IMG/VR virus record: IMGVR_UViG_3300032731_001234
Location: 1-24,778 of that record
Strand: one strand, 5' to 3'
Source of the DNA: a virus
Length of the DNA: 24,778 bases
Shown: positions 5,897 through 23,656 of the stretch, piece by piece
Numbering within the stretch: the first letter of the stretch is position 1
How the letters are laid out: each line of letters opens with the position of its first letter
Position numbers and translations under genes: made by a program
Notes under the pieces: model-generated
The model's input: only the letters and a program-made list of their open reading frames with translations
Told to the model about the DNA's origin: nothing
Databases searched by the model: none

Positions 5897-5915
5897 CTTC
5901 TACAAGGCTTTCAAC
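5897..5915 (-). promoter_or_regulatory. Predicted phage late promoter P1 (fibre)
   Basis: On the minus strand this reads GTTGAAAGC-CTT-GTAGAAG, one of eight copies of the window-wide element. It sits in the short gap between the 158-aa gene and the fibre. If transcription begins at the G of TAGA, the leader to the GTG start is about 25 nt. It would drive the fibre, the pentapeptide protein and the downstream partial gene. Confidence 0.75.
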
Positions 5916-5924
5916 GTGTGAGTG

Positions 5925-6401
5925 TTAGGGCAGGCGATACCAGATGACGCGGCCTAGCCAGGCGGGGCTGGGGCCGAAGGAACACAACTCGACAAGTACG
6001 AGGGCGCCGGTCTCGGCGTAGGTGCTGGGATCTACCCCCTCGCCCCAATCAACATCGTAGTCGAAATACGTGGTAAACGTCTCCAGCGGGGTGCCGACAA
6101 ACCGCAACAGGATCCGGATCTCGCGATAAAAGCCCGCCGGGATATCGCTGGGGTTGGGGACTGGCACCGGCAAGTTGTCCGGATTGGTGACATCGAGATC
6201 GATGTAGTTTCCGGCGAACAAATTGCCGTTGATGGGGTGGTTGACGCATGCGCCACCCAACTCGATTGGGTTTCCGGCAACATCCGCCACCCACACCCGG
6301 CCATCCGCCGTATTGGTAATCAATTCCCCATCGGCGCCATCACCGATAAACGGCTCCTCGCCGGGAAGTGATGTAGTGAGTGTTTGTACGGTTGCTTCCA
6401 C
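5925..6401 (-). CDS. Putative virion protein (158 aa), fibre-associated
   Basis: A beta-rich 158-aa protein that I cannot assign firmly. Its N-terminal part has the pattern GELITNTADGRVWVADVAGN, like the GEl-x-N-xx-dgrLyv-xd-xxG motif found at the N-terminus of many phage tail-tip and major-tropism-type proteins. A similar motif (RGELFLNEVHEELYYVGADG) occurs in the 110-aa protein at 21544-21876. The start is GTG directly after TATCCC, only about 15 nt from the predicted transcription start of its own promoter, with no Shine-Dalgarno. It lies upstream of the fibre in the same direction, separated by the fibre's own promoter. A baseplate- or fibre-connecting role is inference from position. Confidence 0.8.
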   Translation of the reverse strand: MEATVQTLTTSLPGEEPFIGDGADGELITNTADGRVWVADVAGNPIELGGACVNHPINGNLFAGNYIDLDVTNPDNLPVPVPNPSDIPAGFYREIRILLRFVGTPLETFTTYFDYDVDWGEGVDPSTYAETGALVLVELCSFGPSPAWLGRVIWYRLP

Positions 6402-6412
6402 GGGATAAATAG

Positions 6413-6431
6413 CTTCTACCCTGCTTTCAAC
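6413..6431 (-). promoter_or_regulatory. Predicted phage late promoter P2 (158-aa gene)
   Basis: The minus strand reads GTTGAAAGC-AGG-GTAGAAG. It lies back to back with P3 on the plus strand; the two nine-base cores form GCTTTCAAC-C-GTTGAAAGC at 6423-6441. The predicted leader to the GTG at 6401 is about 15 nt. Confidence 0.75.
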
Positions 6432-6432
6432 C

Positions 6433-6451
6433 GTTGAAAGCCCTGTAGAAG
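6433..6451 (+). promoter_or_regulatory. Predicted phage late promoter P3 (baseplate operon)
   Basis: The plus strand reads GTTGAAAGC-CCT-GTAGAAG. The predicted leader to the GTG at 6466 is about 18 nt. No other copy of the element, and no obvious terminator, was seen from here to the terminase stop at 15315, so the whole baseplate-terminase block may be one transcript. Confidence 0.75.
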
Positions 6452-6465
6452 ACTGAATTTACGCC

Positions 6466-7485
6466 GTGGCAACGTACCTGACCGATTCCTGGTCGACAAT
6501 ATCCGGCCTGGCAGCGGTAGCCTACGGCTCCCCGGATCGGTATCCGGAGGTGGCTAACCAGGTTCGGCGCAAATCGGTCACGGGCTTCCTCGGACCGACA
6601 CCCCCCAGCGATGTGATCGGCAACCGCCTCGATCGGATCAGTATGGGGGATGCGCTGACGGCCGAGTACGGTCGGGGTCAGGACTTCGCCCGGTTTATAG
6701 ACGGCCAAGGCCAACCGCTATCTGTGTGGTCCGATAGGATTTACTCGGGGGTGTTGCAGGCCTATAACGAATTCGCGACATACGAGTCATCCCTAACCGA
6801 TGCGTTTGAATACGTTTTCGATGGGTTGGGGATAACACTCGACACTCAGCGGGTAAAAGACCACCTCGTTGGTTCGGTATCCGACCTCGATCTGTACAGT
6901 CAGTTGGCGTCGAGTGTCACCTACAACAAGCTGGATAAGTTGCCGGCCGGGACCCGCATTGATCTCGATGACAGCACCGGTCTCGATAGCGACTCCGCCG
7001 GTGTGGGTTTTCCTACCGGGTATCTGACCCCCGCTAACTACTTCAGCGGGGTTGCGTATCCGGGCATGGGGACAGACGGTACCAATCTGCCAGACAGCAT
7101 TGTTAAGTCGGTTACTGAGGGGTACCAGGGATACGCCACTCTCCAACCGCTCGACGACCTCCTACGGCCCGGAATCGCCGCGCTGATGTCGCTAGCGGAT
7201 ATCCGAGATGTCCGTGGTACGAATCGGGCGATAGCCGGGCTGGGTACGATTGGCACCCTGAAAGATCTGAGCGGTATCGGCTCTATGAGTCCGGCCGACC
7301 AGATCATGTACAGCGTAAATCTCTCCGAGATTGTTGTCGGGATGAACGGGTACACAGTGTACGATCCGGCCACCGACTCAAACGGTGATTTTATCGACAC
7401 CTCCCTGGTGCCGGATTACGCCGCTGATAACGCCGACACCGGTCTGCCCTACTCCCAACGTCCCCGCACTACCACCTTCGATTGA
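6466..7485 (+). CDS. Putative baseplate protein with LysM-like N-terminus
   Basis: A 339-aa protein starting at GTG. Residues about 7-35 (DSWSTISGLAAVAYGSPDRY, then PEVANQV) match the pattern of a LysM-like repeat (dT-x-x-IA-x-x-YG-x-x-xxx-x-I-x-xxN), as found in small baseplate proteins such as T4 gp53 and P2 gpX. The remainder is soluble, glycine- and aspartate-rich, without recognised motifs. It is the first gene of the baseplate block and is followed after 12 nt by the gpJ-like gene, the position expected of a wedge or hub component. No Shine-Dalgarno is visible. The structural role is well supported by context; the LysM match is moderate. Confidence 0.82.
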   Translation: MATYLTDSWSTISGLAAVAYGSPDRYPEVANQVRRKSVTGFLGPTPPSDVIGNRLDRISMGDALTAEYGRGQDFARFIDGQGQPLSVWSDRIYSGVLQAYNEFATYESSLTDAFEYVFDGLGITLDTQRVKDHLVGSVSDLDLYSQLASSVTYNKLDKLPAGTRIDLDDSTGLDSDSAGVGFPTGYLTPANYFSGVAYPGMGTDGTNLPDSIVKSVTEGYQGYATLQPLDDLLRPGIAALMSLADIRDVRGTNRAIAGLGTIGTLKDLSGIGSMSPADQIMYSVNLSEIVVGMNGYTVYDPATDSNGDFIDTSLVPDYAADNADTGLPYSQRPRTTTFD

Positions 7486-7497
7486 TAACTAACTACC

Positions 7498-8790
7498 ATG
7501 GCAACTGAGATATTCGGACCGTTACTCCCGTTACAGCTTGATAGCCGAAATGTGAATGAGTTGGTGCGGGCGATTCAGTCCCGGATCCATATCGAGTCGG
7601 GCGGTCAGTTGACCGATTTCACACCGGCATCACCCCTAGCGGCCATCAGCGAAGGGCAGGGATTTGCCCAAGCCGAACTGTTGTACTATTTGAATTCGCT
7701 GCCGGAGGCCGTCACCATCCAGTGGTTGCGTAGTCTGGGGGTTCAGCGTCGAATCGGGTCCAGGGCGCTTGTCGATGTGACGTTTTTTCGGGTCCCTGGG
7801 TACACCCGGCCCGTCACCATCCCCTCCGGCACGAAAGTCTACGCCAACTCCGGTCAAGTATTCGTACTCCTGGATCAGGTGCGGATGACCGAATCGAGTG
7901 CGACCGTTACGGCTCAATCGGAGCGGTGGGGCACTGTGTATAATGTGCCGGCCGGGAGTATCGGACGTGTTGAGCGTAACTTTCTCGGGCTCGATCTGGT
8001 AACGAATAACGCTCCGGCCGCCGGTGGCACCGATCTCGAGACCGTTGATGGGATGAAGCTGAGGGCGTTTGAGTTGTTTGGTAGGCGTAACTTGACCTCC
8101 CGGACTGACTTTGAGGGCGAAGTGTCCGCCATCGCACCCGAGGCAACACTGGTCCGGGTGATGCCATACGAGGAGAGGTTTGGTATTGAATCTCGGGGGG
8201 TGTATGTGGTGGCGGGTGGTGACGATGGCAGCCAGCTTAGCGTGCCGACTCAATCCCTACTTCTGACATCACTGCGGGATCGCGTTCCCCTAGATGTCAA
8301 GGTGTACTTGTCGGCGCCGACCGTATTGCCGGTAGAGGTGGTCGCTAGCATCCAATGGGACCCGAGGGTGACGACCACCTTCACTGACACCCTCGCTAAT
8401 CAGATCAAAACCCTGCTGGCCGATCTCATCTACCCATCAGCTATCGGACTAGGTAACAACCTACCCGGCTCGAGCGTACTTAGGGAGTTGCTGGCGCTCG
8501 ATTTCGTAGTCGACATACCTGTGCTGGATATTAAGCAGATGGCGCTCGATCCGGACATTACCGGGGCGACTGATGGGTATTGCGGGAGGTTCCTAGGAAC
8601 GGAGGACGAAGTAAATGATACGTGTACGTATGAGTACGAGCAAGTAATTGATAGGGTATCGGCCACCCCCCTCTCGGTACCTGATTCAACATCCGGATTC
8701 AGACTTTACAGGGTGATAGTTTCACTCACATCGGTAGTTGACTTCAGCACACTGACCTATACGTACGAGGACCTGTACCGTGTTGTCTAA
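7498..8790 (+). CDS. Baseplate J-like wedge protein
   Basis: A 430-aa protein with the course of a Baseplate_J family member (P2 gpJ / T4 gp6 type). A helical N-terminus (PLAAISEGQGFAQAELLYYL) is followed by a beta segment with VDVTFFRVPGYTRPVTIPSG, the typical 'TIPSGTkv' core. Later come NVPAGSIGRV and the AGGTDLETVDGMKLRAFELF region, matching 'gGtDaEsdealR-xR', and finally the LPVEVVASIQ segment with a helical DTLANQIKTLL. These proteins form the wedge that links hub to sheath. The gene ends in an 11-nt overlap with the next one. A short Cys-containing stretch near the C-terminus (YCGRFLG, NDTCTYEYE) is a local extension not usual for gpJ. Confidence 0.92.
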   Translation: MATEIFGPLLPLQLDSRNVNELVRAIQSRIHIESGGQLTDFTPASPLAAISEGQGFAQAELLYYLNSLPEAVTIQWLRSLGVQRRIGSRALVDVTFFRVPGYTRPVTIPSGTKVYANSGQVFVLLDQVRMTESSATVTAQSERWGTVYNVPAGSIGRVERNFLGLDLVTNNAPAAGGTDLETVDGMKLRAFELFGRRNLTSRTDFEGEVSAIAPEATLVRVMPYEERFGIESRGVYVVAGGDDGSQLSVPTQSLLLTSLRDRVPLDVKVYLSAPTVLPVEVVASIQWDPRVTTTFTDTLANQIKTLLADLIYPSAIGLGNNLPGSSVLRELLALDFVVDIPVLDIKQMALDPDITGATDGYCGRFLGTEDEVNDTCTYEYEQVIDRVSATPLSVPDSTSGFRLYRVIVSLTSVVDFSTLTYTYEDLYRVV

Positions 8791-10717
8791 TAGCACGTGG
8801 GACCGAGGAGCGGCGAAAAAACTCCTGTCACCTGCCTTTGTTAAAGGGTATGGACGGGTGGTTTATGAGTTCGAGAATCGCCAATCCAGCAAGATATTTT
8901 CCCACACCCTAGGGCGTGTTGACTTCCGGACCGGTCTAGACGACAAGTTGACATCGGGCCGTAACGAGCAGATTGAGGCGGTGTACGGGGAGAGGGGTGT
9001 GAATGGGTACCGGTATAAATCGGTCTCGCACACCCATATCCGCCCCGTTCTAATCGGTAGTGGGCTAACGGTCCTGGGGCATGGTATTTCAGTCGCCAGT
9101 GGCTGGGAAAACTGCGCGATGGCCGGGGCGACATGCGCAAATGGTGAAAGCGACACCCGGTGTGAGGTGGGGAAGTGCCGGATTGGTACGTTGACACGGG
9201 TGGCCGGTGACCGTTGGAGGTACGACTCCCTGACGGTGTCGGGCCTGTACTATTTCGTATTCGGCAGGGATAGGGTAACACTACGTAGTGTTACCCGTGG
9301 GCGGTTTAGCTTGCCGGCTGGATCCGGTACGGTGAACGTTTCCCGGGTAGCGAGCATCCCCGCCACCATATATCTGCCACCGAACACATACTCGGAGGAG
9401 ACATTTACGAGGAGGGTAATTACTACCCGCTACGCGGACCTGGTTACGGTTCGTTCACTTACCGATTCGGTTGACGACTTCGTCCGGGCGTTGCTGGGAA
9501 TGAACCAGGCGACAGTGAAGGTAGAAACGGAGGTCAGGGACCGGTTACTTGATACGTTACAGGGAGTTCTCGACCCGGCCTGGTACGAGTTTGTGTCAGA
9601 CGAAATCGATGAGTTGTGGGATCAGAGATTTACGGGGATTAATAAGACAAATCGAGATTTCCTAATCACTGCGTATGGGGCGTTAACAACCCTGTATCAA
9701 TCAGGGATTGAAGTGATGATGTCGGGTATTCGGGGGTCGAAGGTTGCGGTCGATGACAGGATCGGGAGGCCGGTATACGGGAGATTGCCTGGGGTCGAGG
9801 GGGCATATAACAATCCCGACGAGCCGGACACCCCGGCAAAGTGGCTGACGTCCGGGTCCGACGATCTGCTGTCCGGGACCAAACACACCTTGGATAATTT
9901 CTACCGGACATATCTCGACCCGGATACCTGCTACCCCCTCAACCTGGACTGGCTGGCCCAGCACCTCGGGTTTGTAGGCGGACTATGGAACCTGGAGTGG
10001 CCCAATGCCACCAAACGCCTCTTGCTCCGGAACGCCCATGTCAACGCTGTGTCCGGATCGATGTGGACCCAGGACTCCTCACTGGATACGCTGCGCCGTA
10101 TCGATACGGGACGGATCGAGCGGGTCCAAGTGAACTCGGGCACCGGAGTGGTCACTACTGCGTATAGGTATAGCGGCCGAGTGTACAACACCACAACCGA
10201 CCTAACCACTATCGGGACCTTTAACAACCTGGTTGTAGATGTGTCTCGTTGGCAGGGAATCTTACCCTCCCGCGGTAGCATGCTGACCTTGCTGTTTATG
10301 TTTTGGGCGCTGGGGATAAAAGCCCACACCCCCGGCGAGTTGAGGTACGACTCGGCCACAGGCACTTTTGTTATCCGTAGCGGGCTGCGGGATCGCGAGC
10401 TCAGTGCCCCCATCAACGTGCCGTATATCGTAGATGTGTTGAGGGCTGGAACCGACACAGACGCGGAAGTAGCCAATTACCCCAACCAGCTCATCTCCGG
10501 TGTCGGTACGTGTCAGGACGAGCTGTCAGCTAATACAACAATCATACGCATGCCCTTTTACTACAACCGGAACGGTCGTAGCTGGGACGCTGCTGTGTCC
10601 GTAATGGATAACTACGCCCCCAGTACATCTTTAAACCGTGTACAGTATGCGTATTCGGTGGCCGATTTGCTGGTTGCCGATGATGTGTTCTTTGAACCGG
10701 AAGTGGTAGTTAACTAA
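8780..10717 (+). CDS. Baseplate protein with gpI-like domain
   Basis: A 645-aa protein beginning at a GTG inside the end of the gpJ-like gene. Residues about 377-415 (YLDPDTCYPLNLDWLAQHLG, then NLEWPNATKRLLLRNA) match the core of phage tail protein I (P2 gpI), whose members follow gpJ in many myoviruses: 'C-x-xxLp-LA-x-x-l-x-vd-x-W-x-xxW-x-x-xxkR-xll'. gpI proteins are normally near 200 aa, so this is much longer, with large N- and C-terminal beta-rich additions. The N-terminal part has a cysteine pair cluster (NCAMAGATCANG, RCEVGKC) that may bind metal or form disulfides. Likely a wedge component on the baseplate periphery. Confidence 0.82.
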   Translation: MLSNSTWDRGAAKKLLSPAFVKGYGRVVYEFENRQSSKIFSHTLGRVDFRTGLDDKLTSGRNEQIEAVYGERGVNGYRYKSVSHTHIRPVLIGSGLTVLGHGISVASGWENCAMAGATCANGESDTRCEVGKCRIGTLTRVAGDRWRYDSLTVSGLYYFVFGRDRVTLRSVTRGRFSLPAGSGTVNVSRVASIPATIYLPPNTYSEETFTRRVITTRYADLVTVRSLTDSVDDFVRALLGMNQATVKVETEVRDRLLDTLQGVLDPAWYEFVSDEIDELWDQRFTGINKTNRDFLITAYGALTTLYQSGIEVMMSGIRGSKVAVDDRIGRPVYGRLPGVEGAYNNPDEPDTPAKWLTSGSDDLLSGTKHTLDNFYRTYLDPDTCYPLNLDWLAQHLGFVGGLWNLEWPNATKRLLLRNAHVNAVSGSMWTQDSSLDTLRRIDTGRIERVQVNSGTGVVTTAYRYSGRVYNTTTDLTTIGTFNNLVVDVSRWQGILPSRGSMLTLLFMFWALGIKAHTPGELRYDSATGTFVIRSGLRDRELSAPINVPYIVDVLRAGTDTDAEVANYPNQLISGVGTCQDELSANTTIIRMPFYYNRNGRSWDAAVSVMDNYAPSTSLNRVQYAYSVADLLVADDVFFEPEVVVN

Positions 10718-10721
10718 CAAC

Positions 10722-13700
10722 ATGCAAAAGAATCCGTTTATCCCTATAGCGTCGATGGCGCAAGCCCAGACCCGGATCATCGAGACTCTAGGTGTCCCAT
10801 ACGCCGACCCATTCAATGAGGAGGGAGTGATAGCAGATGTCAACGACCCCCTTAAGTTGGGCAGGGTCAAGGTGACGACCGACGATCAGATCACATCATC
10901 CTGGATACCCGTCTCCGGATCGAATAGCGGGACGCTGAGTGCTAGGTATATCGGTGCTCAGGTACTGGTTGGTAAAAGGCGTGGCCGTTCGGATGATATG
11001 TATGTGATCGGGGTAGTCCGGAGCGATCCGGGCGTGGGGGTTAACGGAAACCCGCTGCAACTTCCGGTGATCGATGAGAGCATGGCGGTGTGGAATGGGT
11101 CCACCGACCCGGGAATGTCGTGTAACGAGGGTAATCAGGGGCGGGTATACATCCTCAGCAATGAGATGAATCAGGATGTCGTGGTGTGTTTGCGCCGCAC
11201 CAGTAAGCAGGTAGGGTCGAAACCGGCCTGGGCCTGGAAGTCCATTACCAATGGGTTGTGGGTCGAGAAGGGGGTGAACCCCGGCAACGAGACCACATTG
11301 GCGATCGAGCAGGGGCAGAAGAGGAACCCGGGCATCCCGGAGTGCAGTGAGGCGCTAGCCGGTGAAGAACACGAGTTCTCCGAGGATCGGGGGTTCCGCA
11401 CCATCAAGATGATATGTCAACGGGATGAGAACAAGTCGTGGAGTTGGCGTCCCAGCAGTGCGGTCCCTACGTACTTCCGGACCACAATGCCCAACTGCAC
11501 TGAGAAACTCCACGGTATGGAGGCTCTACTCGATGATGGTAATAACTCCGAGCTGTTGATATGTCAACGGTATCAAGGTTCGATGAAGTGGGTGAAGCAG
11601 GGTCAGCGTCTCCCGCACAAATTTCACACCCAGGATAAACCGCTAAGCCGTGTCGAGTTCACGACCAGCTACAAGCCGGTCAAGGCGCTGGAGGAGGAGG
11701 CGGTAGCGGCTACAAATTATGACTGGGTCGCTGGAGATGTGGCCGGGGTAGTTTTCGACACTGTGATTGGGAACATCCCACTCACCGGTACGGACCCCGC
11801 CCTACGAGCCCTACTGGAGTCCGCATCGCTGGTTCCGGCAACCGCGTTTGATGGGGCCGATACGCTGCAGCAGGCGGCCCGGGAGGCATTGTCTAGCCGG
11901 ACTGGAATCCCCGTCGAGACGTTGTTCCAGACGATACGGGACGAGCTCGACGACAACGGCTCACTGACACTGGAGACCGGGACCGTCTTGGCGGGGGTGG
12001 GTGCCGCAGCGGACGTATTGGTGAATGGGGTTGTGGCGGGGGATACCGGCGCCGCATTGCTCCAGATCGGGCAAGACACCCTCCGCAATGCGCTACTCAC
12101 TTTGGAGCCTCGGGCCGCATCGGTAATGACCGGGCTGATGAGTGGGGGTATAGCCGGAGCCATAGATAGTGCGGTGGCGGTTGGGTTGGATGAACTACCC
12201 CCCGAAGTAAGCAAGTATGTCGGACCGGCGATCGATATTGCGCAGGGCTTGTTGGCGTCAGCGTACCCCACTTCCCTAGGTACCATCCTTAACTCCGCCT
12301 CGGGTGGCGGGTTGCTGGGGGCAATCACCAGCACCATTAATATCGCTGTAGGAAATAATGTGGTGACTCCGGCACTGCTGGAGAACATAGCGACAGGACT
12401 AACCACGGGGTCGTTTGGGGAGATACCGAAGCTGTTCGGGTCGTTATCCAATCTCGATGCGGTGTCAAAGTTAGCGCCCGGATTGGGGTCATTGCCGGTC
12501 TTAGCCACTACGGCCCTGGGCCTTATTGGTCAGGGCGAATCGATGACAAAACTGCTAGGGGCTGGCGGTCTGGGTATCGACCAGCTCAGCGAACTTGTCG
12601 GTGGTGATTTTAATGCCGCCGCGACCATTATTAGTGGGGTTGAGGGACTGAAAGGGGTATTTGGATCGGGGTCCCCTTCGGCTTCTGATTGCCCTTGCGG
12701 ACCCAAGTGCCGCAAAGTCTCTCACGGGGAAGATAGTGATGGAAATAACATCCTTGAGAAGTGTGGAGCGTTGACGGCCAATAACTCCAACGCGTATAGT
12801 CCGGGCGGAGCCCCAGTACCTAACAATACGGGCCCGGTAGCACAGGCCCAAGGGCTCACCAATACGCTGGTGGGGTCGAACCTGATCCCGTCGAATCGGA
12901 CCGACCTGACCAAGATGGTTGAGCAGGTCAGCCGGGTGAAGGATATGGCTGAGCGGTTCAACGCCTCGAGGTTCGCGGACCTCCCCGAGCATATGGCCGA
13001 AATGGCATATACCTTCGAGGCCGTTGAGAAGTCGTTTAAGACCGCCGACAACAACATCACAGGGGTGGAGTCGGTAGAGCGAAAACTGATTGACTCGATG
13101 TACAATCTGCTCACGAACATTGTGTACAAGAAGGGGGGCGGGGTTCTCCCAGATATTATCAACGATGCTCGGGAGAACGCTCAGGCCATCCGAGACCTGT
13201 ACAAGTTTGTGAAAAAGCTGGATCAGGTTAAGAGGGGGGGTAGTGCGGGGGTCAGGTTGACTCGGAATCTGGCTGACTCGTTTGGTAATATACCCGGCTT
13301 GGCGGCTCTGGGTAAAAAGAATCGCACCGAAGCCCTGAAGATCTTGAGGGGGGGAATTACTCCGGCGGACCGGGAATGGCGCAGCCTGACACCAGGTGTC
13401 GACTTCGGCTCGGTGCTGGGAACCTACGGGCCGGCTATCCCCGCCCCCTATCCCTCCGAACGCACACTGTTCGACCGGGACCGGATCCTGGCAATCAGCG
13501 CTGAGTCGAAACTGGGCGAGACATCACCCCAGCCCCGGCAACTCCTGGATTCGGTGCTGTCGCCCAGCCAGATTAAAAGATTGAAGGGGACGGGTGTGGG
13601 TGAATCTTTGGGGTCTAATATCCTTAATGGAGCTGTGCCCCCCTCCGTACCAGGTGCCGTGGACCCCCTCTCCTCCGCACCGGGTGAAAGCTCGATATAC

Positions 13701-13742
13701 GACGCCATTACGGCTCGAGAGGGAAAGACGGCTTGTGAATAA
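10722..13742 (+). CDS. Baseplate spike/hub protein with OB-fold N-terminus
   Basis: A 1006-aa protein. Residues about 30-105 (GVIADVNDPLKLGRVKV, SSWIPVSG, GAQVLVGKRRG, YVIGVVRSDP) fit the OB-fold domain of T4 gp5 / P2 gpV / VgrG spikes. Unlike those, it continues into a 300-residue alanine/glycine-rich hydrophobic helical region (about residues 340-650) and then a Cys/His cluster: C657, C659, C663, H668, C681. The C-terminal third is helical. Spike proteins of this fold pierce the outer membrane; the cluster could bind Zn or Fe as in some spike tips, but this is inference. Start ATG is 4 nt after the previous stop. The terminase GTG overlaps its end. Whether the middle region sits in the tail lumen cannot be told. 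Confidence 0.82.
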   Translation: MQKNPFIPIASMAQAQTRIIETLGVPYADPFNEEGVIADVNDPLKLGRVKVTTDDQITSSWIPVSGSNSGTLSARYIGAQVLVGKRRGRSDDMYVIGVVRSDPGVGVNGNPLQLPVIDESMAVWNGSTDPGMSCNEGNQGRVYILSNEMNQDVVVCLRRTSKQVGSKPAWAWKSITNGLWVEKGVNPGNETTLAIEQGQKRNPGIPECSEALAGEEHEFSEDRGFRTIKMICQRDENKSWSWRPSSAVPTYFRTTMPNCTEKLHGMEALLDDGNNSELLICQRYQGSMKWVKQGQRLPHKFHTQDKPLSRVEFTTSYKPVKALEEEAVAATNYDWVAGDVAGVVFDTVIGNIPLTGTDPALRALLESASLVPATAFDGADTLQQAAREALSSRTGIPVETLFQTIRDELDDNGSLTLETGTVLAGVGAAADVLVNGVVAGDTGAALLQIGQDTLRNALLTLEPRAASVMTGLMSGGIAGAIDSAVAVGLDELPPEVSKYVGPAIDIAQGLLASAYPTSLGTILNSASGGGLLGAITSTINIAVGNNVVTPALLENIATGLTTGSFGEIPKLFGSLSNLDAVSKLAPGLGSLPVLATTALGLIGQGESMTKLLGAGGLGIDQLSELVGGDFNAAATIISGVEGLKGVFGSGSPSASDCPCGPKCRKVSHGEDSDGNNILEKCGALTANNSNAYSPGGAPVPNNTGPVAQAQGLTNTLVGSNLIPSNRTDLTKMVEQVSRVKDMAERFNASRFADLPEHMAEMAYTFEAVEKSFKTADNNITGVESVERKLIDSMYNLLTNIVYKKGGGVLPDIINDARENAQAIRDLYKFVKKLDQVKRGGSAGVRLTRNLADSFGNIPGLAALGKKNRTEALKILRGGITPADREWRSLTPGVDFGSVLGTYGPAIPAPYPSERTLFDRDRILAISAESKLGETSPQPRQLLDSVLSPSQIKRLKGTGVGESLGSNILNGAVPPSVPGAVDPLSSAPGESSIYDAITAREGKTACE

Positions 13743-15315
13743 GGTCCAACTGGTTCATGAAAGACAGCTCGTTGCCGAAATGAGTTTGAAGGTTGAGGAC
13801 TTGAATCCTGACCAGAGGAAGGAGTTACTCCGTTTGAGGTGTCGGACCGAATTTCTTATCTACTCAAAGTTTATTACTCGGGAAGTGCCTGGAAGTGGGG
13901 TATTTCAACCTTACGACGTCCACAGGTTGATTTGCGACTGGGCACAGAAGGTTAGTGACGGGGATATCGACTATCAACGTACCGCCATCTCTCTTCCTCC
14001 ACGTACTGGAAAATCCTTACTGATATCCAGACTGCTACCAAGCTTCGCTTTCGGCAGATCTCCCACTTCTCAGCACATTTTGGCTAGTTACGCTCTCAAA
14101 CTAACCACCGAAAACTCCCGCTCGATCCTGGAATTTGTAACCTCGGAAGCGTTTCAGTGGTTGTTTCCGGAGTTTACAATCAAAAGGGCTGACTGCAATC
14201 TGAAGGTAATTAGGAGTCAGCAGGGGGGGATTATCATGAGTGCTTCGGCTGGCAGTGGAGTAACGGGTTTCGGTTTTGGTTCTATCAGCAACGACGATAT
14301 GCCCGGACTAGGTATCCTAGATGACGTTATCCAGGACGGTACTAGTCCTCAGGTTCTAGAGAGTACTTGGGGCTGGGTAAGTCAGCAGTTTGGCACTCGT
14401 ATGTTGCCCAACTACGCGCTGATGTCAGTTGGTACGAGATTTCATGTCCATGACACTACAGGAAGACTGATCGAGTCTGATCCGGATCGGTGGAGGGTTC
14501 TGAATGTTCCGGCCCTTTGCATTAATGAGGAAAACGATCCCATGGGTAGGAAGCTAGATGAGTCCCATTGGCCAGAATTCTTTCCGTCATCAGTACTAGA
14601 GTCTATTAAGAAGCAAGATCAAAAGACCTTTAACGTCCTGTACCAGGGGCAGCCCAGGGGTGAAGACGGATCGATCTACAAGCTGCACTGGTTCGAGCAG
14701 CATGAGAAAAATAGGGAGTCGTATGAGTTTGTGTACGCCACAGCCGATACAGCCCTTAAAAAGGGAGAGCAGAACGACTCATCGGTTATTTGTATCTTTG
14801 GGGTTGTTCGAAAGACCCGAAAACTCCACCTGATCCACGTGTTTAAGGAAAAAATGGAGTTCCCGGACCTTCTGAAGATGATGCCCATGCTTATGAAAAG
14901 TTGGAAAGTCCGTTCTCTCTACATTGAAGCTCGAGCGTCGGGCCTTCCACTCATACAAATGCTCCGGAAAGAGATTCAAATCCCTGTCAAGGAGATCATC
15001 CCCAGCAAGGATAAGGTTTTGAGGGCAAACGAGGTTGCTCCTATAGCTGAGGATGGACGAGTCTCAGTTTACGCCGGAATCCCTGGCTTGGCAGAGCTTA
15101 TGTCCGAACTATGCTCTTTCCCTTATGTTAAGGGGGATGACTTTGTAGATTCTTTCTGCAGCGGTTTGAAGATATATAGGGATGAGATTATGGGTTCGGC
15201 CAAGGCTGCTCACGGCGGTAGTCGTATCCACTTGCCAATGGCAAACCATCGAGGGGGGCAGCAACGGATTACGGGGAGACTGGAGCGCGGATCGATACGG
15301 ACAAACTACTTGTAA
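13735..15315 (+). CDS. terL: Large terminase subunit
   Basis: A 526-aa packaging ATPase-nuclease. The Walker A-like loop is PPRTGKS (residues about 88-94). Walker B is LGILDD with D196 and D197, preceded by a coupling-like segment (GSGVTGFGFG). The C-terminal RNase H-type nuclease shows YATADTALK (D338) and DDFVDSFCSG (D472). I chose the GTG at 13735, which overlaps the spike gene stop and has AGAGGG about 10 nt upstream; the frame is open further 5', but that part runs inside the spike gene and lacks family features. An ATG at 13780 is the alternative. Codon and base use differ from the baseplate genes before it (more AAG, AGG, TTG), so it may have a separate history. No small subunit is seen nearby. 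Confidence 0.95.
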   Translation: MNKVQLVHERQLVAEMSLKVEDLNPDQRKELLRLRCRTEFLIYSKFITREVPGSGVFQPYDVHRLICDWAQKVSDGDIDYQRTAISLPPRTGKSLLISRLLPSFAFGRSPTSQHILASYALKLTTENSRSILEFVTSEAFQWLFPEFTIKRADCNLKVIRSQQGGIIMSASAGSGVTGFGFGSISNDDMPGLGILDDVIQDGTSPQVLESTWGWVSQQFGTRMLPNYALMSVGTRFHVHDTTGRLIESDPDRWRVLNVPALCINEENDPMGRKLDESHWPEFFPSSVLESIKKQDQKTFNVLYQGQPRGEDGSIYKLHWFEQHEKNRESYEFVYATADTALKKGEQNDSSVICIFGVVRKTRKLHLIHVFKEKMEFPDLLKMMPMLMKSWKVRSLYIEARASGLPLIQMLRKEIQIPVKEIIPSKDKVLRANEVAPIAEDGRVSVYAGIPGLAELMSELCSFPYVKGDDFVDSFCSGLKIYRDEIMGSAKAAHGGSRIHLPMANHRGGQQRITGRLERGSIRTNYL

Positions 15316-15325
15316 CGGAAATTTG

Positions 15326-15345
15326 TGCTATAGTACGTACGTACT
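15326..15345 (+). promoter_or_regulatory. Host-type extended -10 promoter with palindromic operator candidate
   Basis: An extended -10 box, TGC-TATAGT, lies at 15326-15334; no good -35 is present at the usual distance. Directly over the expected start point is a perfect 14-bp palindrome, AGTACGTACGTACT (15332-15345). A palindrome here would suit a repressor dimer that blocks initiation. It precedes the thioredoxin-sigma-HNH unit, and no copy of the GTTGAAAGC element is nearby. Confidence 0.6.
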
Positions 15346-15355
15346 CGTAACTAGC

Positions 15356-15362
15356 GGGAGGA
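15356..15362 (+). promoter_or_regulatory. Strong Shine-Dalgarno (GGGAGGA)
   Basis: GGGAGGA sits 3 nt before the ATG of the thioredoxin-like gene. It stands out because most genes in the window, notably those behind the GTTGAAAGC element, lack any Shine-Dalgarno. Confidence 0.75.
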
Positions 15363-15365
15363 ACT

Positions 15366-15683
15366 ATGAGCGAATTTAAGTACAGAGTGGTTTTATTCGG
15401 TCAGCCGGGCTGCCCGGCGTGCGATGCCATGGCCCCCATCTGGGCGAAGGTGGCAGGTGAAGTGGCGGAGGAGTATCCCGAGCTCCAGGTGGGCTGGGGA
15501 GAAATGGACGTCCAGGAGGATGGTTGGGAATTCCTGGAGTCGTTAGTGCCCGGCCAGTCCGGTAACGGCACCCCGGAGATAGCCATCTTCGACGATGAGT
15601 GCGAGCTGGTCGCCTTCAACGGTGATGGGATCATGCCCGCCTCACAACTCAAGGACTTTGTAATCAAATCATGCAAAAACTAA
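15366..15683 (+). CDS. Thioredoxin-like protein (CPAC active site)
   Basis: A 105-aa thioredoxin-fold protein. The first strand (YRVVLFGQPGCPACDAMAPI) carries a CxxC active site with C16 and C19 as CPAC, and the conserved cis-proline is P70 in GNGTPEIAIF. The size is that of a single thioredoxin domain without signal peptide, so it should act in the cytoplasm as a dithiol-disulfide reductant, possibly serving phage ribonucleotide reductase or another enzyme encoded elsewhere. The CPAC dipeptide differs from CGPC of classical thioredoxin and is nearer to glutaredoxin/NrdH-like variants. It is the first gene behind the host-type promoter and is followed after one base by the sigma factor ATG. 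Confidence 0.9.
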   Translation: MSEFKYRVVLFGQPGCPACDAMAPIWAKVAGEVAEEYPELQVGWGEMDVQEDGWEFLESLVPGQSGNGTPEIAIFDDECELVAFNGDGIMPASQLKDFVIKSCKN

Positions 15684-15684
15684 C

Positions 15685-16404
15685 ATGCGACCTATAGAGC
15701 TCGAACCGTTAAAGGGTGTCCCCAGGTCGGAGTACGAACGGACCCGGGACAAACACATCCGGGAGAATATGTGGAAAGCGGGCAACACGGCCCGCAAGGT
15801 GTCGCAGTTTAGCGGGTTGCCGTATGACGACCTGAGGTCTGTGGCTCTCGAGGCGATGGTTAAGCTTTACGACAAATGGGACCCGGGTAAGGCGAACTTC
15901 AGTACGTGGCTGAATCGCTCACTCACCTTCCAGGTACTTAACTACTTGCGTGATCACTCTCGGATGATCCGGATCCCCCGAACATACGCCGACTGCTACA
16001 TGAAGATCCGGAAGTACATCGGATCCGACCCCAACATATCGAATCAGGAGCTCTCGAGGCTAACGGACATCCACGTCTCGTTGATCTCTGAGACCCGGTC
16101 CGCTTACCAGACCACTTTCCTAGAGATCAACGAAGACACGGAAATGCCCGTGGATGCAATCGACATCAATGATGATAGCTTGGGGAAGATGTTAGATGAC
16201 TATGGGGATGTTACGGAAAACTTGATGTCGTTGTCCCAACCCGACCTGGAGTTTTTAACCGACACGTATGTGGATAAGCGGGCAAATTCTACGTTGTTTC
16301 GGAAGTACCCTGGTATTAACTCTTCGGATAAGATTCGGGAACGTACTAGCGAGTTGATGGAGCGGGTATTGGGAGGGTCGGAGTGTCGGCAAGAAGGTAC
16401 GTAG
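15685..16404 (+). CDS. Phage-encoded sigma-70 family factor
   Basis: A 239-aa protein with a clear sigma region 2 at residues about 47-99: PYDDLRSVALEAMVKLYDKW, GKANFSTWLNRSLTFQVLNY, then LRDHSRMIRIPR. Region 3-like helices follow (SNQELSRLTDIHVSLISETR). The C-terminal 80 residues are acidic and only weakly resemble region 4 (KYPGINSSDKIRERTSELM), so the factor may be a reduced one recognising mainly a -10 element, or need a partner as T4 gp55 does. It would direct host core RNA polymerase to a subset of phage genes. It lies between the thioredoxin-like and HNH-like genes, has no Shine-Dalgarno, and its end overlaps the next start by 22 nt, so its translation is probably coupled. Confidence 0.9.
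   Translation: MRPIELEPLKGVPRSEYERTRDKHIRENMWKAGNTARKVSQFSGLPYDDLRSVALEAMVKLYDKWDPGKANFSTWLNRSLTFQVLNYLRDHSRMIRIPRTYADCYMKIRKYIGSDPNISNQELSRLTDIHVSLISETRSAYQTTFLEINEDTEMPVDAIDINDDSLGKMLDDYGDVTENLMSLSQPDLEFLTDTYVDKRANSTLFRKYPGINSSDKIRERTSELMERVLGGSECRQEGT
16371..16377 (+). promoter_or_regulatory. Shine-Dalgarno deciding the GTG at 16383
   Basis: GGGAGGG inside the sigma gene lies 5 nt before GTG 16383 and supports that start for the HNH-like gene in place of later ATGs. Confidence 0.65.
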
Positions 16405-17105
16405 AGGTAGCGGGCACCCAGTACAACAAGAAGGGGTTTGGGGCGAGATGGTCGGCGATAGTATCGGGGTATGAGATTGGTTTGACCGTGTCACCCGACG
16501 ACTCATCGTTCGTGTCGGATGTCCTGCGGCGGATTTTGCGATTCGCCCGGATCATGGATCGTGGTCAGGTGCAGTTCCGGGTCGTGCAGAGGTCGTTTAA
16601 CGGGAAGCGAGTCAAAGGGATTGCGCTTGTAACTCCGAACTCCGGGCATGAGGTGTGGGTGGGGAAGCAGGTAGTCGTCCGAGCGATGTTCCCCAACACC
16701 AACACACCCGATCAGGGGAAAGTTAATCGTCGGGACGTGTTGAGGTCGCTACGGGATATTGTCGAGCCGCAGATCCGAGAATACCGGAGGCGGTTTGCGG
16801 GCAAATCGGTCATAAAGTCGTCGTTGACTGGCCGCCCCATCCTGGGGCCGTACCACGTCGATCATGTGTATCCGTTTATACGGTTGGTGGAGGAGTGGTG
16901 TAGGGAGAACGGGTTGGATCTGGAAACCATAGCAGTGAGGTGTCGGGGGACCGTGTGTCGGCTGGAGTCGGTCGAAATGGCCGAATCGTGGTTCGATTAC
17001 CATGCCCTGCACGCGGAGTTCCAGGTCCTGGATGCGGCGGAAAATACTTCAAAGGGGGCTCGCTATGTCGGGCGAAGCGCTGAACAGCCGGTCGAAGATT
17101 CTTGA
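16383..17105 (+). CDS. HNH/DUF3223-like protein
   Basis: A 240-aa protein. The C-terminal half resembles the second part of DUF3223 (DCL-type) proteins. It has a helix of the RxxVxxQI kind (RDIVEPQIREYRRRFAGKS), then TGRPILGPYHVDHVYPFIRL with H158, D160 and H161, and finally WFDYHALHAEFQVLDAAENT (H, N), the layout of a beta-beta-alpha metal/HNH-like motif. The cysteine often seen before TG in that family is replaced by serine (KSSLTG), so metal binding may be altered. The N-terminal half is basic and beta-rich. Nucleic-acid binding or nicking is plausible but not shown. It is the last gene of the trx-sigma unit, and its final 57 nt overlap the convergent 181-aa gene. Confidence 0.7.
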   Translation: MSARRYVEVAGTQYNKKGFGARWSAIVSGYEIGLTVSPDDSSFVSDVLRRILRFARIMDRGQVQFRVVQRSFNGKRVKGIALVTPNSGHEVWVGKQVVVRAMFPNTNTPDQGKVNRRDVLRSLRDIVEPQIREYRRRFAGKSVIKSSLTGRPILGPYHVDHVYPFIRLVEEWCRENGLDLETIAVRCRGTVCRLESVEMAESWFDYHALHAEFQVLDAAENTSKGARYVGRSAEQPVEDS

Positions 17106-17594
17106 TGCTTCGGTGGCCAGGATCTCTCCGATCTCGGGGGAGTCCTTCAGTACACGGTTGAGCCAGGGCTGATCGGACTGGGCGGATTCGGAATAACCCG
17201 ACAGCATTGAGTACACCGGGCGTTGTTGCAAACCCACCACAGAGGCGGTGTCTCGTCCCCCATACCTCTCCTGCAGGTACTTGATGACCGGGGAGTCGGG
17301 ACCCTGACGTTCCAACTCAACCTCGAGGTTTTTCAGCGAACTCTGTAGGGCGGTGTACAGCCGTTCTCCGGTGTTGTCGCTTGACACCACCACGGACATG
17401 GCCTCGACCGAGCGGACATATTGTCCGATGTTGTGCGTGATCTCGCGGGTGTATCCCTCGGCTACGGTCCGGAGAAATTCCACCCTGACCGATTCGGACA
17501 GTTGTGCCACCGCTTCGCGTTTGGCGACACTCCGTACCGAGTCCTCGATGACGTCGCGCATGAACATGCCGAGGATGGACTTGATGAGGAGCAT
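17049..17594 (-). CDS. Unknown protein (181 aa), downstream of hub
   Basis: I do not recognise this family. The protein is mainly helical and charged. The N-terminal region (IEDSVRSVAKREAVAQLSES, then VRVEFLRTVAEGYTREI) looks amphipathic and could form a coiled coil; LYTALQSSLKNLEVELERQG is a second helix. There is no signal peptide; MLLIKSILGMFM is a short hydrophobic start but too short for a firm membrane call. It starts 6 nt after the hub stop, without Shine-Dalgarno, so it is probably translated with the hub and may be a tail-assembly or chaperone protein. Its end runs 57 nt into the opposite-strand HNH-like gene, so the two transcripts would be complementary there. Confidence 0.75.
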   Translation of the reverse strand: MLLIKSILGMFMRDVIEDSVRSVAKREAVAQLSESVRVEFLRTVAEGYTREITHNIGQYVRSVEAMSVVVSSDNTGERLYTALQSSLKNLEVELERQGPDSPVIKYLQERYGGRDTASVVGLQQRPVYSMLSGYSESAQSDQPWLNRVLKDSPEIGEILATEASRIFDRLFSASPDIASPL

Positions 17595-17600
17595 GGTGGG

Positions 17601-20675: not shown

Positions 20676-20702
20676 AACACTGAGAGCTCCGGTATGGGGG
20701 TA

Positions 20703-21479
20703 TTATACCACTTCGATCACATTGAACGTGATGGTGTTGGGGGTAGCGTCTAGATCGACACCGCCACCCGCCGTACCACCATCATCCTTGACTTGGAACG
20801 TGAACGAAGCGTACGCGGCACCGAAACCACCAAGGGCCGGGGTATACTCTAGCAGGCCGATGTCAGCCACAGGGACGAAGTCGGCAGCGGTAACGGCGAT
20901 ACCGTCAAGCTCCAGGGTTCCGAGTGCGGGCAGGGTTGCGATCTTGACGGAGAAGAACTCGTCGGCAGGGTTGTCGAGCGGGTCGGTGAATCCGAAGTCA
21001 ACCGCGGAGAACGCGTACACCTCGTCCTCATCAATGGTGATGGTCTTGTTGGTGCCGGCCGGCGCGTTGTTAACCGATGCCACGTTGTCGAATATGGAGT
21101 CGAGGGTGACGCTGAGGTTGTAGACGGCCACCATAAAGTTAAAGTCGCCATCCCCCTCCATGCCCACATACCGGGTGACATTGACTAGCTGAGCGTTGAG
21201 GTCGTTGACGTAGGGATCGGTGGGCACATCGACGTTATTGACCAACGCGTCGATTACCAGCTCGAGGACACCATAGGCGAATTGTTTGGCCGAGAAACCC
21301 ATGCTAGGGCCGCAGGCTACGAATTTATTCCGGAGGGCGGTGCGGTGGGATGGGGTGTTAGCGCCAGACGACCAGCCGACAAGCAGATCGTCGGCTAGGA
21401 CGGTGGCAAACCAGGACTGAAGCTCCAGCTTATAGCTGTACTCGATACCGATTAGGCGTTTTAGGGTGGCTACTGACAT
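20703..21479 (-). CDS. Putative virion protein with C-terminal cadherin-like domain
   Basis: A 258-aa protein. Residues 1-135 are an unrecognised, largely helical domain (KLELQSWFATVLADDLLVGW, AYGVLELVIDALVNNVDV). Residues 137-258 are a complete beta-sandwich of the cadherin-like/tandem-95 type common in bacterial surface adhesins: VNNAPAGTNKTITIDEDEVY, then AVDFGFTDP, IATLPALGTLELDGIAVTAA, LLEYTPALGGFGAAYASFTF, QVKDDGGTAGGGVDLD, NTITFNV. In phages, Ig-like domains are usually attached to exposed virion proteins and bind surface glycans weakly. The gene has its own promoter copy and a small hairpin in its leader. It lies just upstream of the hub. Which virion part it belongs to cannot be told. 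Confidence 0.85.
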   Translation of the reverse strand: MSVATLKRLIGIEYSYKLELQSWFATVLADDLLVGWSSGANTPSHRTALRNKFVACGPSMGFSAKQFAYGVLELVIDALVNNVDVPTDPYVNDLNAQLVNVTRYVGMEGDGDFNFMVAVYNLSVTLDSIFDNVASVNNAPAGTNKTITIDEDEVYAFSAVDFGFTDPLDNPADEFFSVKIATLPALGTLELDGIAVTAADFVPVADIGLLEYTPALGGFGAAYASFTFQVKDDGGTAGGGVDLDATPNTITFNVIEVV

Positions 21480-21488
21480 GACGGATGT

Positions 21489-21502
21489 GGGGAATCGACC
21501 CC
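21489..21502 (-). other. Leader hairpin of the 258-aa gene
   Basis: Between promoter P4 and the ATG at 21479, the minus-strand leader contains GGGG-TCGATT-CCCC, a 4-bp G:C stem with a 6-nt loop. There is no U tract, so it is not a terminator. It could protect the 5' end of the mRNA or affect translation. It is short and may be chance. Confidence 0.35.
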
Positions 21503-21513
21503 GGAAACAATGA

Positions 21514-21532
21514 TTCTCATATAGCTTTCAAC
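21514..21532 (-). promoter_or_regulatory. Predicted phage late promoter P4 (258-aa gene, hub)
   Basis: The minus strand reads GTTGAAAGC-TAT-ATGAGAA, the most divergent tail among the eight copies but with a perfect nine-base core. The leader to the ATG at 21479 is about 37-39 nt, longer than at the other copies. The hub and 181-aa genes downstream have no further copy and probably depend on this one. Confidence 0.7.
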
Positions 21533-21543
21533 GAGATCTGAGG

Positions 21544-21876
21544 CTACGCCACACGGACTTTCAGAACGCTTAATGTCCTATATAATCCACCTACCGGGAC
21601 GGCCGGGGTGGCGGCAGCGGCCGCGGAGTCATCGGCGAAGTTCCGCAAGCCCGTGAAGTCGATACGGCCAAATGGGATGGGCCCCGTGCCATTCACGGTC
21701 TTGGCCGTGCCGTCCGCTCCGACGTAGTAAAGTTCCTCGTGGACTTCGTTCAGGAATAGCTCGCCGCGTTTGGCCGCTGCCGCGTCATTATCGTACAGGT
21801 CCTGGACGTATTGCTGGCGGCGGAGGGTATTGGCGGTGTACCGGACTCCCCAGCGGGGACGGGGCGGGATGGTCAT
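21544..21876 (-). CDS. Small putative virion protein (110 aa)
   Basis: A 110-aa protein with a basic N-terminus (PPRPRWGVRYTANTLRRQQY), an alanine-rich helix and the motif RGELFLNEVHEELYYVGADG. That motif fits the GE-L-x-N-x-x-xxxLYvg-x-xG pattern seen at the N-termini of phage tail-tip and tropism-type proteins, and echoes the 158-aa protein at 5925-6401. The second half is Ala/Pro-rich and ends in beta (GGLYRTLSVLKVRVA). It starts at ATG about 19 nt from the predicted start point of its own promoter, with no Shine-Dalgarno. Probably a small baseplate or fibre-linking protein; family unknown. Confidence 0.75.
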   Translation of the reverse strand: MTIPPRPRWGVRYTANTLRRQQYVQDLYDNDAAAAKRGELFLNEVHEELYYVGADGTAKTVNGTGPIPFGRIDFTGLRNFADDSAAAAATPAVPVGGLYRTLSVLKVRVA

Positions 21877-21891
21877 AACGGATTGATAACG

Positions 21892-21910
21892 TCTCTATCT
21901 GGCTTTCAAC
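21892..21910 (-). promoter_or_regulatory. Predicted phage late promoter P5 (110-aa gene)
   Basis: The minus strand reads GTTGAAAGC-CAG-ATAGAGA. It is divergent from the kinase promoter, whose -10 box lies 23 nt away on the other strand. Confidence 0.72.
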
Positions 21911-21929
21911 GACACCGGATCAAGGGGGG

Positions 21930-21938
21930 TGGTATAAT
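21930..21938 (+). promoter_or_regulatory. Host-type extended -10 promoter (kinase)
   Basis: TGG-TATAAT at 21930-21938 is a perfect -10 with the TGn extension; no clear -35 is present. The expected start point is close to 21945, about 16 nt before the ATG at 21961. This promoter differs in type from the GTTGAAAGC elements around it. Confidence 0.65.
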
Positions 21939-21960
21939 AAGCGGAGTTGACAACGGGTCC

Positions 21961-22554
21961 ATGGAATCGATCATTGTGCTTGGAGCCGATCGGGTTGGGA
22001 AAACTACCGCTGTGGGAAATAGCCTCCGGTATCTCGAGGAGACTGGCCTCACTGTGACCGTGTGCCATTTCGGCGGGGTAAGCCCCAAACATCACAGCCC
22101 TGTCCAGCAGTTCGTTGATACGTTGTCCGGGATTGATAACATGGTCGACTATCTCCTCATCGATCGGTTCGTGTCCGACACACTGTTCTATGAGCCGTAC
22201 CGGTACCAGCTACCACCCATCCCGGACTATGTCGCCACTGAACCCGAGTCGATGCTGCTGGAGATGTCTAGTGGGGTTCGGGTTGTCCTCATCGAACACG
22301 AGTGGGATATAGCGATCCGGACCAGGCACGAGCAGGAGATTCGGTCGCTGTGGCCCGGTTGTACGGATTTCTGGGTCCGTAGTCAGCTAGAGAAACGGCG
22401 TCTCGAGCACATCGCGTACTACGAGCACACGAACCGGTATCTGGCATCAACGACCCTCATCCACCGCGTAAATATCTATCGGTTGCCGGGTCATCTCGCC
22501 GGTAACACTCCGAGTCTGGAGATGGCCGGTGGTTTTTCATTCTTCGGGGGTTGA
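21961..22554 (+). CDS. P-loop nucleotide kinase (deoxynucleotide/thymidylate kinase-like)
   Basis: A 197-aa protein with an N-terminal Walker A loop, GADRVGKTT (residues 8-16), at the end of the first strand (MESIIVLGADRVGKTT). A DRF motif follows in YLLIDRFVSDTLFY (D68, R69), which corresponds to the DRY/DRF substrate-site motif of thymidylate- and deoxynucleoside-kinase-like enzymes. An RxxxE-type lid (RTRHEQEIRS) comes later. It probably phosphorylates a (deoxy)nucleotide to feed phage DNA synthesis; the substrate cannot be read from the sequence. The frame is open 150 nt further upstream, but the ATG at 21961 gives the canonical N-terminus and follows the extended -10 promoter. Its stop codon overlaps the next promoter element. 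Confidence 0.82.
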   Translation: MESIIVLGADRVGKTTAVGNSLRYLEETGLTVTVCHFGGVSPKHHSPVQQFVDTLSGIDNMVDYLLIDRFVSDTLFYEPYRYQLPPIPDYVATEPESMLLEMSSGVRVVLIEHEWDIAIRTRHEQEIRSLWPGCTDFWVRSQLEKRRLEHIAYYEHTNRYLASTTLIHRVNIYRLPGHLAGNTPSLEMAGGFSFFGG

Positions 22555-22568
22555 AAGCTATGTAGGGG
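22550..22568 (+). promoter_or_regulatory. Predicted phage late promoter P6 (upstream of phoH)
   Basis: The plus strand reads GTTGAAAGC-TAT-GTAGGGG and overlaps the kinase stop codon. It is the only copy with a long leader (about 90 nt) and with a terminator hairpin before the next gene. Confidence 0.68.
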
Positions 22569-22607
22569 TGAGGACAACTCTTTGCCAAAAAGTTTAACCG
22601 AAACCCG

Positions 22608-22637
22608 GCCGGTCAGTGTTGCACGTCCGGCTTTTTT
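22608..22637 (+). terminator. Rho-independent terminator between kinase and phoH
   Basis: GCCGG (22608-22612) pairs with CCGGC (22627-22631), with an inner GTG/CAC stem around a TTG loop, and is followed directly by six T. It would end host-polymerase transcription from the kinase promoter. It lies about 40 nt below promoter P6 and before the PhoH ATG. Confidence 0.8.
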
Positions 22638-22655
22638 GTAACTACCCGCACTTAC

Positions 22656-23396
22656 ATGACCAAAGCACGGACTCGCAAGGACAAGGCGACAGGTTTCGAC
22701 GAGATTGCTTATGGGTTGCCGCCGACACGCGGAGATGAAGTACGAACTATTAACCCGATGAATGAGAGTCAGCGGGAGGCATTAGACCACTTAAGGAATA
22801 AGACGCTGACGATCTTGACCGGACCCCCCGGTACCGCCAAGACCCTGCTGTCGGTATTCATCGCGTGCGAAAAGTTACAGAAGCGGCAGATCGACAAAAT
22901 CTACTACATCAAGCCGATTGTTGATACGCCGGGTGAAAAGGGGATCGGATTCTTGCCCGGCTCCGAGATGGATAAACTCGAGCCACACGTAGCGTCCCTA
23001 CGTGATGCGTTGAGTGTGTTTATGGTCAAGGGTAAGGCCGAGTATATGGTCGATAAAAAGATCATTGAGTTCCTGCCCATCGAACACCTGAGGGGGCGCT
23101 CGCTCCACCGGTGCATGATCATCGCGGACGAGATGCAGAATGCCACTAGCCACTCCGTGCTGACGATCCTCTCCCGGCTTGGCGACCACAGCACGATCGC
23201 CCTGCTCGGCGATGTGATCCAGCGGGACTTGGCTAACCGGTTTGGGCGGGACGGCTTGTCCGATGCCGCCACCCGGTTGTCTCACCTTGACGGCTTCGTG
23301 GGCCATGTCGAGTTCGGTATGGACGACATCGTCCGGTCGGAGTTCGTCCGAGAGGTGATTAAATCGTATCGGGATCTGTACGAGGGGCGGGGCTAG
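22656..23396 (+). CDS. phoH: PhoH-like P-loop ATPase
   Basis: A 246-aa PhoH family ATPase. Walker A is TGPPGTAKT (G56-T63) in the characteristic setting NESQREALDHL...ILTGPPGTAKT. The family's PIVDTPGEKGIGFLPGS segment follows, Walker B is IIADEMQNAT (D158, E159), and sensor-like ALLGDVIQRD comes after. The length is typical of phage PhoH, which lacks the PIN domain of longer bacterial forms. PhoH-like genes are widespread in aquatic phages; the biochemical role there is unsettled, with suggestions of RNA or phosphate-stress functions. It follows terminator 22608-22637 and lies about 90 nt below promoter P6, without Shine-Dalgarno. Its last codons overlap the minus-strand 81-aa ORF. Confidence 0.93.
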   Translation: MTKARTRKDKATGFDEIAYGLPPTRGDEVRTINPMNESQREALDHLRNKTLTILTGPPGTAKTLLSVFIACEKLQKRQIDKIYYIKPIVDTPGEKGIGFLPGSEMDKLEPHVASLRDALSVFMVKGKAEYMVDKKIIEFLPIEHLRGRSLHRCMIIADEMQNATSHSVLTILSRLGDHSTIALLGDVIQRDLANRFGRDGLSDAATRLSHLDGFVGHVEFGMDDIVRSEFVREVIKSYRDLYEGRG

Positions 23397-23604
23397 ATCC
23401 GCTCCGGCCCTGCAGCGTAGACTGAATTCCAGACGGCATGAAAAGGCCCGCCACGAACATCCACCGGTCGACGCAGTGGTTGACCTCGTACGGGCCTCGT
23501 GTCCAGTTGGGAATCTCGCACATGGACAGGAACGCCAAACAGAAGATAATTTCCCCCACCAGGAACGCCGTGCTCTCGGTCGCTTTTAGCAATTTTTGTG
23601 TCAT
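23359..23604 (-). CDS. Putative small membrane protein (81 aa)
   Basis: This ORF starts at ATG 23604, about 18 nt from the predicted start point of promoter P7, the same close spacing as other genes with this element. The peptide has a probable membrane helix (STAFLVGEIIFCLAFLSMCE) and a second hydrophobic stretch (WMFVAGLFMPSGI). The C-terminal 20 residues overlap the end of phoH and read less like protein. I do not recognise it. A small membrane protein expressed with virion genes might be a holin- or spanin-like factor, but no diagnostic motif is present. The main support is the promoter copy, since the ORF itself is short. Confidence 0.55.
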   Translation of the reverse strand: MTQKLLKATESTAFLVGEIIFCLAFLSMCEIPNWTRGPYEVNHCVDRWMFVAGLFMPSGIQSTLQGRSGSSPAPRTDPDTI

Positions 23605-23618
23605 AGCAATTACTCAAC

Positions 23619-23637
23619 CCTCTACCCCGCTTTCAAC
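23619..23637 (-). promoter_or_regulatory. Predicted phage late promoter P7 (81-aa gene)
   Basis: The minus strand reads GTTGAAAGC-GGG-GTAGAGG. With P8 its core forms the perfect 18-bp palindrome GCTTTCAACGTTGAAAGC (23629-23646). Confidence 0.7.
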
Positions 23638-23656
23638 GTTGAAAGCACTATAGATA
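23638..23656 (+). promoter_or_regulatory. Predicted phage late promoter P8 (23667 gene)
   Basis: The plus strand reads GTTGAAAGC-ACT-ATAGATA. The stretch ACTATAG is the same as in the T7 RNA polymerase promoter core. The leader to ATG 23667 would be about 14 nt with no Shine-Dalgarno. Confidence 0.73.

Follow-up and report, generated by a model that had tools for sequence, protein, structure and literature searches.

The 19-bp element that occurs eight times in the window, GTTGAAAGC-NNN-RTAGARR, almost certainly serves as the start signal of the late genes, those for the virus particle, in a phage lineage related to cyanophage S-TIM5. The element is two-part, with an upstream box directly beside a -10-like box, TRTAGARR, 2-3 bases on, and the most likely reader is a phage sigma factor with host RNA polymerase rather than a T7-type polymerase. 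From the sequence comparisons below, we give a probability of roughly 0.7 to the reading in which a phage sigma-70 family factor on the host core RNA polymerase recognizes this two-box late promoter. Lateness itself we infer from gene content. No published description of the element was found in the literature searched, which did not cover the 2012 S-TIM5 genome paper. The element supplies a promoter map, and from it a prediction of the late genes, for a whole lineage with no late promoter described in that literature, and it points to one sigma-promoter pair that can be tested in a cultured phage (S-TIM5).

The window, by which we mean the whole stretch of DNA analysed, is a virus record of 24,778 bases whose closest cultured relative is S-TIM5 (Aurunvirus); its terminase is 54% and its sigma factor 41% identical to the S-TIM5 proteins. 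It carries genes for a tail fibre, baseplate proteins, terminase, a thioredoxin-like protein, the sigma factor, a lysozyme-containing tail protein and PhoH. Close relatives of the sigma factor are encoded in 28 viral contigs, nearly all of which have the element at syntenic places, and the S-TIM5-related lineage is widespread and little studied. One of these contigs (L007) comes from a virus almost identical to that of the window and was excluded from the statistics. The psbA gene is present in S-TIM5 and one further relative and was not found in any window-type contig tested. A small protein with pentapeptide-repeat-like sequence, encoded at 147-548 (-), matched PHROG families of unknown function (best match 1e-16).

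Eight exact cores were counted in the window, as the preliminary description had reported, against a mean of 0.15 and a maximum of 2 in shuffled sequences. The TAGA-like tail that the same description gave to all copies is present in seven of the eight: five match the full form exactly and two have one mismatch, whereas the copy at 21514-21532 (-) has three mismatches and the tail ATGAGAA. Its account of the siting, with every copy intergenic apart from one stop codon overlap and each pointing at the next gene, was confirmed; the overlapping copy is the one at 22550. For seven copies, the start codon aimed at is 30-54 nt away, counted from element base 1; the eighth (22550) aims at phoH, 107 nt off, with a terminator-like hairpin in between (Table 1). 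The structural operon led by the copy at 6433 holds the baseplate, terminase, thioredoxin-like and sigma factor genes, and the ortholog of the S-TIM5 fibre gene is led by the element in relatives.

Table 1. Proposed late promoter elements and associated features in the window
Feature	Position	Strand	Remarks
Late promoter element	5897-5915	-	Core 5907-5915, -10-like box 5897-5904; for tail fibre gene 572-5875
Late promoter element	6413-6431	-	For gene 5925-6401; head to head with copy 6433
Late promoter element	6433-6451	+	For structural operon 6466-17105
Late promoter element, weakest tail	21514-21532	-	For virion gene 20703-21479 and operon down to 17049
Late promoter element	21892-21910	-	For virion gene 21544-21876
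Late promoter element	22550-22568	+	Overlaps stop codon of gene 21961-22554; putative small RNA or leader before phoH
Late promoter element	23619-23637	-	For small gene 23359-23604; head to head with copy 23638, 0 bp gap
Late promoter element	23638-23656	+	For large gene starting at 23667
Putative structured RNA, about 63 nt	22575-22637	+	Conserved hairpin and TTTTTT end; upstream of phoH (22656-23396); predicted transcript
Sigma-70 family factor, proposed reader	15685-16404	+	Sigma2 aa 16-91, sigma3 aa 99-140, sigma4-like helix-turn-helix aa 166-229

The pattern extends well beyond the window. Nine lineage contigs contain 176 cores where 5.9 were expected, and a start codon lies 28-43 nt downstream of 133 of 175 (76%, against an 11% background; P = 5e-89). 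Measured from element base 1, start codons are found from base 28 onward and peak at bases 29-38, with distances reaching more than 60 nt. A logo was built from 188 non-redundant sites, in which the core is exact by construction; after it come three variable bases, a purine at position 13, T14 (.74), A15 (.77), G16 (.64) and purines to position 19, and no conservation was seen further downstream. The triplet TAG begins at base 14 in 90 sites and at any other position in no more than 11. When head-to-head pairs were left out, there was no conserved -35 box upstream of the core, and a C was preferred just 5' of it. Most one-mismatch variants of the core are not sited before genes, although G at core base 2 or 7 seems to be tolerated. 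An unguided 8-mer search recovered GTTGAAAG from the window-type clade and, from the other clades, GTTTAAAG.

The sister form in S-TIM5 consists of GTTTAAAG and, 4-7 bases further on, TATA or TAG/TAGA. It is present in 36 copies, of which 25 lie within 80 nt of annotated starts. A virion or packaging function is annotated for 17 of the 25 genes led in this way, compared with 30 of the 181 remaining genes (P = 2.6e-7). In relatives, the window-type element precedes these orthologs too, among them the portal, sheath and fibre genes. The window and S-TIM5 with its metagenomic relatives share homologous two-box sequences ahead of orthologous virion genes; the differences lie in the core, which is GTTTAAAG in S-TIM5 and its closer relatives and not GTTGAAAGC, and in the looser distance to the -10-like box, varying by 1-3 bp in S-TIM5-type clades. 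As in an S-TIM5-type late promoter, both boxes are found 27-43 nt before virion gene starts. These lineage-wide intergenic copies before virion genes, their near-fixed distance to start codons and the S-TIM5 sister form support the late promoter first proposed for the eight copies, and the scan of relatives for the core likewise placed copies ahead of orthologous virion genes. The class is not strictly "late only", as some copies lead the non-virion genes for NrdA, primase and SAM decarboxylase.

Two pairs of copies in the window (6413-6451 and 23619-23656) stand head to head with 0-1 bp between their cores. These pairs, and 16 of the non-redundant sites that have a zero-gap partner, make up the palindrome GCTTTCAACGTTGAAAGC, into which one base is inserted in the 6413/6433 pair. 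Apparently, the two window pairs are minimal bidirectional promoters, and since two full holoenzymes probably cannot share such a pair, they would fire in one direction at a time.

The preliminary description named the sigma factor at 15685-16404 as an alternative reader, and this fits better than the single-subunit polymerase that it favoured. Exactly one sigma factor was found per relative tested; Pfam Sigma70_r2 matched 24 of 24, and Pfam region 4 matched none of these 24. The predicted fold contains sigma2, sigma3 and a well-predicted C-terminal helix-turn-helix resembling sigma4, in a model with poor domain packing (pTM 0.34). Core type (G or T) fits the sigma tree with one change (100/100 support, 42 rows), which agrees with recognition by the sigma factor but is weak proof of it because both are inherited with the whole genome.

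We infer sigma binding, domain assignment, the start site and the use of host core polymerase as follows. The phage sigma factor, probably on the host core RNA polymerase, would read the element, with sigma2 melting the -10-like box and the upstream box contacted by sigma3, the sigma4-like domain or a phage partner. If T12 of TRTAGARR is set at about -13/-12, the upstream box falls at about -24 to -16 and transcription would start at about base 24-27, a few nt before the start codon, so that leaders would be only a few nt long and Shine-Dalgarno-less. The purine tail was considered as a Shine-Dalgarno sequence and rejected, as such 4-mers precede 12% of element-led genes, 10% of shuffles and 16% of other genes. 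The sigma gene is itself part of an operon headed by such a promoter, an arrangement that would create positive feedback.

The upstream box is about 12 bp closer to the -10 than sigma4 normally reaches, and a second factor may therefore be needed. A more tentative proposal, which we consider possible but would not favour, is a new sigma-70 geometry in which an 8-9 bp box at about -24 to -16, in place of a -35 box, is contacted by sigma3 or by a sigma4 shifted in position, the cores of the window clade and the S-TIM5-type clades having diverged at one base along with their sigma. If the sigma factor alone reads the element, this arrangement of two boxes next to the -10 would be an unusual mode of DNA recognition for a sigma-70 family protein.

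A phage activator could instead bind GTTGAAAGC and recruit host polymerase with SigA on the -10-like box, in the manner of MotA-like middle or late promoters, leaving the phage sigma to serve other promoters. The box does lie immediately upstream of a -10-like hexamer, and its variable spacing in S-TIM5-type clades is as might be expected of a separate protein. However, a non-exhaustive search found no second promoter class for the phage sigma, TRTAGARR lacks the T expected for SigA at the last position, and the host-type extended -10 (TGnTATAAT) before the kinase-like gene 21961/gp113 looks different, which makes this explanation unlikely.

We regard it as very unlikely that the element works in RNA, as a motif of the 5' leader serving translation or processing, and that the true promoter lies farther upstream. 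Such a role would suit the nearness of the element to start codons and the leaders there that lack Shine-Dalgarno sequences, but the start codon distance ranges from 28 to more than 60 nt, and any other promoter of the head-to-head pairs with 0-1 bp between them would fall inside the opposite gene. In addition, the phoH copy precedes a terminator and not a start codon.

It is extremely unlikely that the 19-bp block is recognized by a phage RNA polymerase of the single-subunit (T7/SP6/N4-like) kind, whose transcripts would begin at G16 (+1) with GAAGRR. The SP6 promoter is TATAGAAG, and the TA|GAAGRR tail resembles it; like T7/SP6-type promoters, the element is compact and contiguous, about 20 bp long with purines at its end, and leaders of 12-20 nt would fit. 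Its difference from them is that the cognate polymerase gene was not found in these phages: PF00940 gave no match in the complete 172-kb S-TIM5 genome and 16 relatives, 17 records in all, under conditions in which the T7 control scored E = 1e-109, and the window itself is a fragment. PHROG scans of 18 large S-TIM5 proteins gave no match to an RNA polymerase family. These scans, together with the lack of any beta subunit (PF00562) match in S-TIM5 or the large relatives (controls 14/14 positive), also speak against a multisubunit phage polymerase. The preliminary description had drawn attention to the copy at 23638, whose ACTATAG is identical to the T7 core; this is probably due to chance because the bases from core to tail vary widely among the 188 sites.

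A host sigma-70 promoter with TTGAAA as the -35 hexamer has negligible probability: TTGAAA does resemble TTGACA, and one copy (23639) scores as such a promoter, but a conserved hexamer is lacking 16-18 nt further on, sigma-70-like matches in the window are about as many as chance predicts (13 vs 12.8), and +1 near base 37 would fall inside most genes, whose start codons peak at bases 29-38, so that start codon positions already refute the -35/-10 arrangement for most copies, in agreement with the poor fit noted at the outset.

The proposed sigma-dependent late promoter invites comparison with that of T4, in which TATAAATA is read by gp55 with gp33 and the gp45 clamp. A consensus resembling it is reported for other T4-related phages, cyanophage S-PM2 included (PMC2988020). 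Common to both would be a phage-encoded sigma on the host core, a -10-like box and a short distance to virion genes; the element differs in having a second box directly upstream of the -10-like box, and its sigma differs in having sigma3 and a sigma4-like domain. The T4 late sequence TATAAATA was itself rejected as a candidate: of its 32 sites in nine relatives and 16 in S-TIM5, one in each set lies before a gene. A gp45-type clamp (PF09116) had no match in 9 records, in a weakly controlled search that did not include T4 itself.

Two boxes about 12 bp apart are also a property of sigma-54 (-24/-12) promoters, which have the consensus TGGCAC-N5-TTGC. The element sequences are unlike it, with GTTGAAAGC/TAGA in the logo as opposed to GG/GC at -24/-12, and the phage factor belongs to the sigma-70 family by its region 2 match; a sigma-54 promoter was rejected accordingly. 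The Microcystis phage Ma-LMM01 is likewise a T4-like cyanophage with a late promoter class, but its late promoters are reported to be SigA-like and to lack a phage-specific motif (PMC5780444).

On the phoH side, the copy at 22550 probably makes an RNA of 60-85 nt or a terminated leader; it may yield a small RNA, and the structured RNA that follows the promoter within 22550-22656 is a candidate small RNA or attenuator. A hairpin directly before a T-run is found upstream of phoH in the window and 11 relatives, two of them S-TIM5-type. The sequences of the stems differ while the stem is kept, and each folds alone; RNAalifold returned no consensus fold because the hairpin sequences differ, and the RNA matched no Rfam family. 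The T-run continues as TTTTTTGTATCTA in the window-type clade, and as TTTTTTGTAACTA in the window.

A GTTGAAAGC..TATATGG version of the element with ATG at base 15 is kept in five contigs (G003 118207, G005 65265, G007 3368, G015 4092 and G002 58825), where the true start codon is probably further downstream than this ATG. The kinase-like gene at 21961-22554, which is not a virion gene, has the host-type extended -10 TGGTATAAT at window positions 21909-21938, and its S-TIM5 counterpart gp113 has a similar one, TGATATAAT.
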